NCBI RefSeq assembly: GCF_011300215.1
Contig: NZ_CP049866.1
Coordinates: forward strand, 2,294,001 to 2,358,000
DNA from: Nocardioides piscis
GTDB taxonomy: Bacteria; Actinomycetota; Actinomycetes; Propionibacteriales; Nocardioidaceae
Reading direction: 5' to 3'
Length of the DNA: 64,000 nucleotides
Shown: positions 40,650 to 50,850 of the stretch, piece after piece
Position numbering within the stretch: the stretch's first letter is position 1
How the letters are laid out: each line of letters opens with the position of its first letter
Translations under genes and position numbers: made by a program
Notes under the pieces: generated by a model
Seen by the model: only the letters and a program-made list of their open reading frames with translations
Database searches by the model: none
What the model was told of the DNA's origin: nothing

Positions 40650-40725
40650 GGGGGTGTGGCGCAGCTGGTAGCGCATCTGCATGGCATGCAGAGGGTCAGG
40701 GGTTCGAGTCCCCTCACCTCCACCA
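40650..40725 (+). tRNA. tRNA-Ala (anticodon GGC), CCA encoded
   Basis: A full 76-base cloverleaf. The acceptor is GGGGGTG paired with CACCTCC, with one G-T pair. The D stem GCGC pairs with GCGC, and the anticodon stem TCTGC pairs with GCAGA around the loop ATGGCAT, giving anticodon GGC at 40683-40685. The T arm is AGGGGTTCGAGTCCCCT. Discriminator A is followed by an encoded CCA. It lies 44 bases after the phosphatase gene. A 10-base inverted repeat six bases after the CCA probably ends the transcript. Confidence 0.97.
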
Positions 40726-47781: not shown

Positions 47782-48168
47782 ATGAGCCAGCCCAACCCCT
47801 ACGCCCAGTCGCAGACCCCCATCTCTCCCGGCCAGGAGCGCACTCTCGGCGCCGTGGCGCACGGGGTCCCACTGGCCGCGATGGTGCTCTCCGCCGGCCT
47901 GCTCGGATTCGTCGGATCACTGATCATCTACATGCTCTACAAGGACCGCGGCCCGTTCGTGCGCCAGCACGCGGCCAACTCGCTCAACGTCCAGATCTTC
48001 GCCGGCATCATCATGCTCGTCTCGCTGCCGCTGATGCTCGTCCTGGTCGGCTTCCTCACGTTCGGGCTGGCCTTCGTCCTCGCCTTCGTCCTGCACGTGA
48101 TCGGCGCGATCAAGGCCAACAACGGCGAGTGGTGGGACCCGCCGATGACCCCGCGCTTCGTCCGCTGA
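47782..48168 (+). CDS. DUF4870 membrane protein
   Basis: A 128-residue protein. The Pro/Gln/Ser N-terminus (MSQPNPYAQSQTPISPGQER) is followed by TLGAVAHGVPLAAMVLSAGL, YMLYKDRGPFVRQHAANSLN and hydrophobic helices ending in HVIGAIKANNGEWWDPPMTP. This is the DUF4870 pattern (three to four membrane segments). AGGAGG lies at 47771-47776, five bases before the ATG. Function unknown. The stop is 35 bases before the leuS leader peptide. Confidence 0.8.
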   Translation: MSQPNPYAQSQTPISPGQERTLGAVAHGVPLAAMVLSAGLLGFVGSLIIYMLYKDRGPFVRQHAANSLNVQIFAGIIMLVSLPLMLVLVGFLTFGLAFVLAFVLHVIGAIKANNGEWWDPPMTPRFVR

Positions 48169-48191
48169 GGCGGCCGCGTGCTCATGGGCGC

Positions 48192-48197
48192 TAGAAT
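48192..48197 (+). promoter_or_regulatory. -10 box of the leuS leader transcript
   Basis: TAGAAT, six bases before the leader-peptide ATG 48204. Confidence 0.6.
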
Positions 48198-48203
48198 GCG
48201 CCC

Positions 48204-48242
48204 ATGAGCATGCGAGCCCTGCTTCTTGGCCAGCCGCGCTGA
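48204..48242 (+). CDS. Leucine leader peptide of the leuS attenuator
   Basis: ATG to TGA encodes the 12 residues [12 protein letters not shown]. Three consecutive Leu codons read CTG CTT CTT; CTT is rare in this GC-rich genome. The ATG lies six bases after a TAGAAT box, so the transcript is probably leaderless and starts directly with the leader. A stem and an intrinsic terminator follow before leuS. Too short for gene callers. An alternative in-frame start is ATG 48210. Confidence 0.8.
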
Positions 48243-48294
48243 CACCTCCTTGAAGAGAGTCAACGCGGCCACCCCTCCATGCGAGGGGTTTTTT
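48232..48294 (+). promoter_or_regulatory. leuS attenuator: competing stem plus terminator
   Basis: Stem A:B pairs 48232-48243 (AGCCGCGCTGAC) with 48259-48270 (GTCAACGCGGCC); its 5' arm spans the end and stop codon of the leader peptide. The terminator stem follows immediately. A ribosome stalled at the Leu codons (48219-48227) would cover the 5' arm of A:B. An alternative pairing of 48242-48248 (ACACCTC) with 48283-48289 (GAGGGGT), with one mismatch, could then act as antiterminator. The stems are seen; the switch logic is inference. Confidence 0.65.
48271..48294 (+). terminator. Intrinsic terminator in the leuS leader
   Basis: ACCCCTC pairs with GAGGGGT around the loop CATGC, followed by a run of six T (48289-48294). 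It lies 30 bases before the leuS ATG, so it must be conditional. It is the clearest T-run terminator in the window. Confidence 0.85.
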
Positions 48295-48324
48295 CATGTC
48301 AGCAGCAGGAGGATCGAGGAGACG

Positions 48325-50850
48325 ATGAGCCAGACGCACGAGACACCGCCCGGGGGCGAGCACGCCTCGACACCCGACGCCGAGGCGCCCCAGTCCTATG
48401 ACGTGGAGGCCGTCCAGGCCAAGTGGCAACCCGTCTGGGAGGAGCTCGAGCCGTTCCGGGCCGACGACGAGGTCGTGCGTTCCGGGCAGCGCGAGAAGCG
48501 CTACGCGCTGACGATGTTCCCCTACCCCAGCGGCGACCTGCACATGGGTCATGCCGAGGTCACCGCTCTGCACGACGTGCTGGCGCGCTACTGGTGGCAG
48601 CGTGGCTACGAGGTCCTCAACCCCATGGGCTGGGACTCCTTCGGCCTGCCCGCCGAGAACGCCGCGATCAAGAACGACGCCCATCCGGCCGACTACACCT
48701 ACGGCAACATCGAGACCCAGCTCGAGTCGTTCAAGAAGTATGCCGTCAGCTTCGACTGGTCGCGCCGGTTCAACACCTCCGACCCCGACTACTACCGCTG
48801 GACCCAGTGGCTGTTCCTGCGGATGCACGAGCAGGGCCTTGCCTACCGCAAGAACTCCCCGGTCAACTGGTGCCCCAACGACCAGACGGTGCTGGCCAAC
48901 GAGCAGGTCGTCGACGGCGCCTGCGAGCGCTGCGGCGCCGAGGTGACCAAGCGCGAGCTGACCCAGTGGTACTTCCGCACCACGGCCTACGCCCAGGAGC
49001 TGCTCGACTCCCTCGACGACCTGCAGCCCACCTGGTCGGACAAGGTCGTCAACGCGCAGCGCAACTGGATCGGACGCTCCGAGGGAGCCCACGTCGACTT
49101 CGTGGTCGACGGCCGGGACGAGCCGCTGACGGTCTACACGACCCGTCCGGACACCCTCTTCGGCGCGACCTTCATGGTGGTCGCGGCCGACGCGCCGCTC
49201 GCGGCCGAGCTGGTCACGTCCGAGCAGCTGCCGGCGCTGGACGACTACCTGGTCGAGGTGCGCAAGGAGACCGACATCGACCGGCTCGCCACCGACCGGC
49301 CCAAGACCGGCGTGTTCCTGGGCGTGCACGCGACCAACCCGCTGACGGGAGAGAAGATCCCGGTCTACGCCGCCGACTACGTGCTCGCCGACTACGGCAC
49401 CGGCGCGATCATGGCGGTGCCCGGCCAGGACCAGCGCGACTGGGACTTCGCCCAGGTCTTCGACCTGCCGATCATCCGCACCGTCCAGCCGCCGGCCGAC
49501 TTCGACGGCGATGCCTTCACCGGTGACGGGCCGGCGATCAACTCCGCCAACGACGAGATCGACCTGTCCGGCATGGGCGTCGCCGAGGCGAAGTCGACCA
49601 CCATCGACTACCTGGAGCGCCAGGGGCTGGGCCGGGGGACGGTCAACTTCCGCCTGCGTGACTGGCTGGTGTCGCGACAGCGCTACTGGGGCCCGCCCAT
49701 CCCGATCATCCACTGCCCCACGTGTGGCGAGGTGCCGGTCCCCGATGACCAGCTGCCCGTCGAGCTGCCAGAGCTGCGAGGCGCCGACCTCAAGCCCAAG
49801 GGGGTCTCGCCCCTCGGCGGCGCCGAGGAGTGGGTCAACGTGACCTGCCCGACGTGCGGGGGAGCGGCAACCCGCGACACCGACACCCTCGACACCTTCG
49901 TCGACTCGTCGTGGTACTTCCTGCGCTACGTCTCGCCGCACGACGACACCCAGGCGTTCGACTCCGACCTGATCAACATGTGGGGCCCGTGCGACATCTA
50001 CATCGGCGGCGACGAGCACGCCGTCCTCCACCTGCTCTATGCCCGGTTCTTCACCAAGGCCCTGCGCGACATGGGGCTCGTGTCGTTCGGTGAGCCCTTC
50101 TCGGCATACCTCTCCCAGGGCAAGGTCATCAACAACGGCCGCAAGATGAGCAAGTCGCTGGGCAACGGCGTCAGCCTGGGTGGACAGCTCGCCGAGTTCG
50201 GTGTGGACGCGGTGCGGCTGACCCTGGTCTTCGCGAGCCCGCCGGAGGACAACATCGACTGGGCGGACGTCTCGCCGAGCGGGTCGCTGAAGTTCCTGCA
50301 GCGTGCGTGGCGGCTCAGTGGTGACGTGACCTCGGAGCCCGGCGCCGCGCCGGCCGAGGGCGACGTCGCGCTGCGGCGGATCACCCACAAGACGGTGCAC
50401 GATGCCGCGCACCTGGTCGAGGCCTACCGCTTCAACGTGATGGTCGCGCGCACCATGGAGCTGGTCAACGCCACCCGCAAGGCGATCGACTCGGGGTGCG
50501 GCCCGGCCGACCCGGCCGTGCGCGAGGCCGTCGAGGCGGTCGCGATCCTGCTGTCGCTGGTGGCGCCGTACGTCGCCGAGGAGATGTGGGAGCGCCTCGG
50601 GCACCAGCCGACGGTTGCTCGTGCCGGGTGGCCCGTGGTCGACGAGGCCTTGCTCGTCGAGGAGTCGGTGATCGCCGTCGTGCAGCTCAAGGGCAAGGTC
50701 AAGGCCCGTCTCGAGGTCTCGCCCGACATCTCCGAGGCCGACCTGGAGGCCGCCGCGCTGGCGGACCCGGCGGTCGTGCGCGCCCTGGACGGCGAGACCG
50801 TGCGCAAGGTGATCGTGCGGGCGCCCAAGCTCGTCAACATCGTCGTCTAG
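48325..50850 (+). CDS. leuS: Leucyl-tRNA synthetase
   Basis: An 841-residue class I synthetase that charges tRNA-Leu. It has the HIGH-type motif in [14 protein letters not shown], a zinc-type Cys cluster (CPNDQ to CERCG), an editing domain ([40 protein letters not shown]), and KMSKS in [13 protein letters not shown]. The C-terminal anticodon-binding region ends [14 protein letters not shown] 48325 has AGGAGG at 48307-48312 and GGAG at 48318-48321. Expression is probably set by the leader-peptide attenuator upstream, sensing charged tRNA-Leu. Confidence 0.97.

Follow-up and report, generated by a model that had tools for sequence, protein, structure and literature searches.

The T-box riboswitch controls synthetase genes, often by termination, and needs no leader peptide. 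The classical trp/leu attenuator combines leader codons for the sensed amino acid, an intrinsic terminator ahead of the gene and an antiterminator that shares a strand with that terminator. Attenuators of the classical kind have been predicted before leuS in Streptomyces avermitilis and S. coelicolor, with antiterminator hairpins underlined in one figure (Seliverstov et al. 2005, PMC1262725), and the 2021 reannotation of S. lividans TK24 (PMC8079986) describes LeuL2, a peptide of 12 residues with three leucines (MRAVRLLLSEPR) that is transcribed leaderless before leuS and downstream of which a hairpin and a run of uridines "seem to promote" Rho-independent termination. A leader attenuator of leuS is therefore not new in itself, having been published for Streptomyces in 2005 and 2021. 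Two further systems are close: the LEU element of leuA, which also has a Leu-run leader peptide and for which a pseudoknot between the Leu codons and the leuA Shine-Dalgarno box was proposed (PMC1262725), and the Mycobacterium tuberculosis ilvB1 operon, which is induced on inhibition of IlvB1 and whose leader, with other codons ahead of another gene, is described with mutually exclusive hairpins, the ribosome at the leader stop being proposed to block the antiterminator (PMC13236596).

The locus analysed here lies in a stretch of 64,000 nucleotides from Nocardioides piscis (the window, to whose forward strand all coordinates refer). The presumed regulated gene is leuS (48325–50850, ATG at 48325), coding for a leucine--tRNA ligase whose sequence scored 904.7 bits against TIGR00396 (cut-off 548.4) and carries the PF13603 editing domain; a candidate Shine-Dalgarno sequence, AGGAGGA, precedes it at 48307–48313. 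Further upstream, the hexamer TAGAAT (48192–48197), the –10 element of a presumed leaderless promoter, is separated by six bases, read directly from the sequence, from the ATG (48204) of a putative leader peptide frame of 12 codons plus stop (48204–48242; ATG AGC ATG CGA GCC CTG CTT CTT GGC CAG CCG CGC TGA), and a promoter scan found no –35/–10 pair above threshold around the leader. The frame contains the candidate regulatory run CTG CTT CTT (Leu-Leu-Leu, 48219–48227), and its stop codon TGA (48240–48242) lies within the 5' arm of a stem-loop, S1 (48233–48269), which is the proposed antiterminator. One base 3' of S1 begins an intrinsic terminator with a T6 run, T (48271–48294; stem 48271–48289, T run up to 48294), which ends 30 bases ahead of the leuS start. 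The initial annotation had pointed out the box, the 12-codon frame with its Leu codons and the leuS ATG, all of which are present; its stem over the leader stop is real as well, whereas the single 12-base helix that it described is not, S1 being composed of three helices (6, 4 and 3 bp) separated by small internal loops. Its identification of a true terminator held, in that T is the sole terminator-like site across 48100–48420, where shuffled sequences lead one to expect 0.1.

The predicted folding energies were –15.0 kcal/mol for S1 alone (48232–48268), –12.1 kcal/mol for T alone and –31.3 kcal/mol for both together (z –5.15), and in each of the three cases none of 200 shuffles folded as well; the fold energy of the whole 137-nt leader was not significant (z –1.45; 15 of 200 shuffles as good). 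An Rfam scan of the window returned no T-box at the gathering score, which only a tRNA gene (40650–40722) reached, and the leader thus differs from a T-box riboswitch. With Streptomyces LeuL2 it shares the downstream gene, a short leader with three leucines and a hairpin followed by a T/U run, and differs in the sequence of the peptide. The compact, presumably leaderless leader peptide on a synthetase gene that the initial annotation had thought worth describing is no novelty, as such a design is in print for Streptomyces leuS (PMC1262725, PMC8079986).

We consider it probable, at roughly 70%, that this region is a ribosome-mediated, leucine-responsive transcription attenuator of leuS, a reading to which sequence, conservation, covariation, geometry and the match between leader codons and downstream gene all point. 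To assess conservation, leuS loci were gathered by protein similarity in the genus, the family and the class, giving 102 loci, of which L043 and L069 coincide, so that 101 are distinct. The leader element was present at 77 of the 101, and 67 loci had three consecutive Leu codons in a short frame. Among the 35 loci without such a run, 10 (7 of 16 and 3 of 19) matched the RNA model described below at E 1e-10 or better, and in seven model-matching loci the run was altered to FLL (L006, L057, L073), SLL (L012), ALL (L056), LLP (L071) or LGL (L077). In all 67 leaders with the intact run a TAnnnT box ended 6 nt (56) or 7 nt (11) ahead of the start codon, comparable to the 6 nt in the window and consistent with a LeuL2-type leaderless start; leader starts with such a box 3–9 nt upstream had been preferred, so that the informative part is the exact spacing and not the presence of the box. 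Start codons were ATG in 37 and GTG in 30 of these leaders. The third Leu codon was CTT in 62 of the 67, a codon that accounts for 4 of 191 Leu codons in five reading frames of the window.

Eight leuS loci inspected within the genus or family had neither a leader nor a model match, and the switch is accordingly dispensable. At four of the leader-less loci, all from the same genus (L011, L014, L021 and L043), the apparent leuS GTG stands 6 nt behind a TATCCT box, from which it seems that the leader was lost and the promoter kept, leaving leuS itself leaderless. In two relatives (L047 and L049) the leader, S1 and the T stem are kept and the T run is interrupted (GGGGCCCTTCT), and the terminator is perhaps weakened there. 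An NTG directly follows the T run in 59 of 65 sequences, within GTGCCC, CATGTC or CATGCC in 42 of them (48295–48300 in the window); no function was found for it.

For the analysis of covariation, 65 sequences were reduced to 56 by removal of near-identical ones and then to 36 diverse rows, which had been selected for the Leu run and the T run and not for S1; L047 and L049, having no clear T run, were left out. The consensus structure of the 36-sequence alignment consisted of S1 and T. Pairing was found in 96.5% of the cells of the two stems and fell to 40–59% when the partner was shifted by 1–3 columns, and 8 of the 16 S1/T pairs showed changes on both sides, in 55 cells. For four of five covariation measures none of 500 shuffles was as high, and for the fifth, the number of pair types, 7 of 500 were. 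Leu codons kept by relatives and two covarying stems were what the initial annotation had proposed to look for, and this comparative evidence supports the leucine leader-peptide attenuator that it suggested. Three other candidate features were rejected. The conserved peptide end QPR is more likely a constraint on the S1 RNA than a peptide signal, because 23 of 67 leaders stop one codon past the Leu run; a frameshift or fusion between leader and leuS is contradicted by a random phase (22/19/17 across 58 sequences); and an anti-Shine-Dalgarno-like CACCTCCTT in the S1 loop (48243–48251) is absent from the close relatives compared, for example L002 and L003.

A covariance model, R1, was built from the 36 sequences. 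In the genome of N. piscis it matched the window site at E 1.7e-16, with everything else at E 0.24 or worse, a score that is partly given by construction because the window is a training sequence, independent support coming from conservation and covariation in the relatives. At E 0.001, and with matches before ilvB and cimA included, R1 matched 143 of the 296 genomes examined in the class, in 62 of 105 genera, and 25 of 197 genomes in a draw from the phylum, again counting ilvB and cimA matches; the 153 class genomes with no match count against the attenuator reading. The 30 best matches in the class (L103–L132), three of which are training sequences (L107, L111 and L121), all lie upstream of leuS, with a frame containing three consecutive Leu codons and a TAnnnT box 6–7 nt before the start. 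Seven of the 30, all in one family (f19), encode MRAVRLLLSEPR exactly; no leader encoding this peptide is among the 36 training rows, and R1 nevertheless finds L129, L130 and L132 at E <1e-13. Among 80 named leuS loci, 27 matched R1 at E 3.1e-6 or better, all of them actinobacterial by title and including Nocardioides, Marmoricola, Microlunatus, Arthrobacter, Propionicimonas and metagenome-assembled genomes of Streptosporangiaceae and Frankiaceae; one Selenomonadaceae locus gave a weak match (E 6e-4) that begins at model position 9.

The 30 best matches precede LeuS proteins of two types, 16 a short type (YPSGDLH), to which the window belongs, and 14 a long type (YPSGxGLHVG), which includes the f19 loci encoding MRAVRLLLSEPR. 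Identity between the types, measured against the window or L129, was 38–43%, save for one partial pair with 54% over 248 residues, and within types 61–87%, save for L242 (from another class) at 55%. One genome (G315) apparently has both types, each behind a leader (L115 and L133), a case to be read with care given a completeness of 93% and a contamination of 2%. These comparisons suggest that one attenuator serves two LeuS types that are about 40% identical, an arrangement that is apparently new here.

Beyond the 30 best, 40 further R1 matches were chosen from those listed and fetched, and the genes behind them were assigned by protein motifs: 18 lay before ilvB, 16 before cimA, four before leuS and one before leuA (39 confirmed by motif), and the fortieth (L136) precedes a small protein that resembles an IlvN-type ACT protein by eye. 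Thus a branched-chain gene was found by motif behind 69 of the 70 matches fetched. The codons in the leaders differed with the gene. All 16 cimA leaders (L134, L141, L143–L145, L147–L150, L152, L255–L258, L260 and L261) contain Ile codons, 15 of them two or more, a finding opposed to the bias that R1 has from its Leu-codon training set; four Leu codons close the leuA leader; and in the ilvB leaders codons for Ile, Leu and Val occur in mixtures (in L253 the script found no start). The 18 ilvB leaders share branched-chain codons and an intrinsic terminator with actinobacterial ilvB attenuators described in PMC1262725 and PMC13236596. Outside the window, N. piscis itself has, as judged by eye (loci L262/L263), a cimA leader, VTTTIVID*, behind which lie a stem resembling S1 and then T, and an ilvB leader MRTLIIVRTRRVS* followed by a terminator-like hairpin and a T run, neither of which is among the R1 matches. 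That the codons change with the regulated gene while the structure stays is good comparative evidence in favour of codon-based sensing. The occurrence of the scaffold before cimA with Ile codons and before ilvB with mixed codons, together with similar leaders in the genome of the window, is apparently new, and no cimA attenuator was found among the open-licence papers surveyed by title and opening of the abstract. The leaderless design, in turn, appears to be typical of the leuS leaders only and not general for ilvB and cimA leaders, because a TAnnnT box lies 6–7 nt before the candidate start in just 9 of the 40 further matches, four of these being leuS.

In all 67 leaders the 5' arm of S1 begins, by sequence position, 5 nt past the third Leu codon (GCCGCG in 51, close variants in 16), and by folding the first S1 pair lies 5 nt (42) or 4 nt (21) past it in 63 of 65 sequences and elsewhere in two. 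Counted from the first base of S1, the stop codon starts at –2 (23), +7 (42), +13 (1) or +22 (1) in the 67 leaders, all of which had been chosen for a stop no more than 15 codons from the Leu run. The footprint of a ribosome reaches about 12 nt past the start of the A-site codon. On this geometry a ribosome at the leader stop must cover S1, because the stop begins between –2 and +22 relative to it. Positioned on the first Leu codon, the ribosome would just clear S1; on the third, it would overlap S1 by several bases. PMC13236596 uses a footprint of 26 nt. The gap between S1 and T was 0–2 nt in 65 of 65 leuS sequences and in 37 of the 40 others (3–4 nt in three ilvB leaders), and since composition-shuffled S1 segments gave 0–2 nt in 58% of trials, chance can account for part of this abutment in any single sequence. 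The two structures have no nucleotide in common, and no overlapping antiterminator was seen in folds that masked the bases under a ribosome placed on any of the Leu codons or on the stop; the probability of T exceeded 0.5 in 65 of 65 sequences under each of the four masks and in 64 of 65 when no mask was applied. The leader thus resembles the classical trp/leu attenuator in its codons for the sensed amino acid and its intrinsic terminator ahead of the gene, and differs from it in that the textbook antiterminator sharing a strand with the terminator was not seen, S1 abutting T instead, which is apparently new here.

In the mechanism that we infer, transcription in Nocardioides piscis would begin at or next to the leader ATG, and the leader would be translated without a Shine-Dalgarno site. 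When charged tRNA-Leu is ample, the ribosome would reach the stop in the foot of S1 and keep S1 open, T would form, and RNA polymerase would halt in the T run, 30 bases short of leuS. Under a shortage of charged tRNA-Leu, the ribosome would wait on the Leu codons, at the first of which S1 would be free to form; there may be no room at the RNA exit channel for a closed S1 and a complete T at once, in which case T would stay incomplete and leuS would be transcribed. Blocking by occupation of exit-channel space is proposed because S1 and T do not overlap and none of the masks removed the predicted T; the mutual exclusion of the two is for the same reason a proposal, as folding of the free RNA predicts T throughout.

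The abutment of S1 and T and their compatibility in free RNA would also suit the opposite role, in which S1 stacks end-to-end on T and aids it, and stalling on the last Leu codons lets the ribosome hold S1 open and so weaken termination. The least variable S1 pairs are those adjoining T, and the third Leu codon, on which a ribosome would reach into S1, is mostly the rare CTT, both as such an arrangement might have it. The terminating ribosome at the stop would cover S1 too, however, and thereby blur the signal, and the mycobacterial ilvB1 attenuator has been explained the other way round (PMC13236596). Because of the placement of the stop codon and this mycobacterial work, we favour blocking of T by S1 and regard a helping role as unlikely.

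Translational control resembling that of the leuA LEU element, with the Leu run pairing with the Shine-Dalgarno region of leuS, is highly improbable in our view. In the predicted fold CCUGCU of the Leu run does pair with AGCAGG ahead of leuS, and across 65 sequences the run binds the downstream 100 nt at –14.56, compared with –12.50 (sd 0.34) for letter-shuffled runs, the own run being slightly better than those of other genomes (–14.11; permutation p 0.026). The runs of other genomes are nevertheless nearly as good, as expected of a pyrimidine-rich run against a purine-rich stretch, and pairing of this kind leaves the conserved S1 and T without a role. That T is an ordinary terminator, or the end of a small RNA from the leader promoter, with leuS transcribed by leaky readthrough or from another promoter and no sensing of leucine, is hardly credible, as it gives no reason for gene-matched codons on one scaffold, for the covariation of S1 or for the fixed spacing between codons and S1, and as the genomes read without T lack the entire leader as well.

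For the leucine-responsive attenuator of leuS, a wider reading is possible, which we put forward tentatively and would not yet call probable. The scaffold of matched codons, a stop at the foot of S1, S1 itself and T within 0–4 nt (mostly 0–2 nt) may recur across Actinobacteria as a common module of leuS, leuA, ilvB and cimA, with an attenuator on cimA that senses Ile; in this module the abutting S1 would stop T sterically at the RNA exit channel, and the switch would have been kept while leuS was swapped for a divergent type.

What had been predicted for two Streptomyces is broadened here into a family open to covariance-model searches. Should the abutting, non-overlapping design be confirmed, searches that require overlapping hairpins would miss such attenuators. 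The rare CTT at the third Leu position offers a well-defined handle on the question of which tRNA-Leu is sensed.
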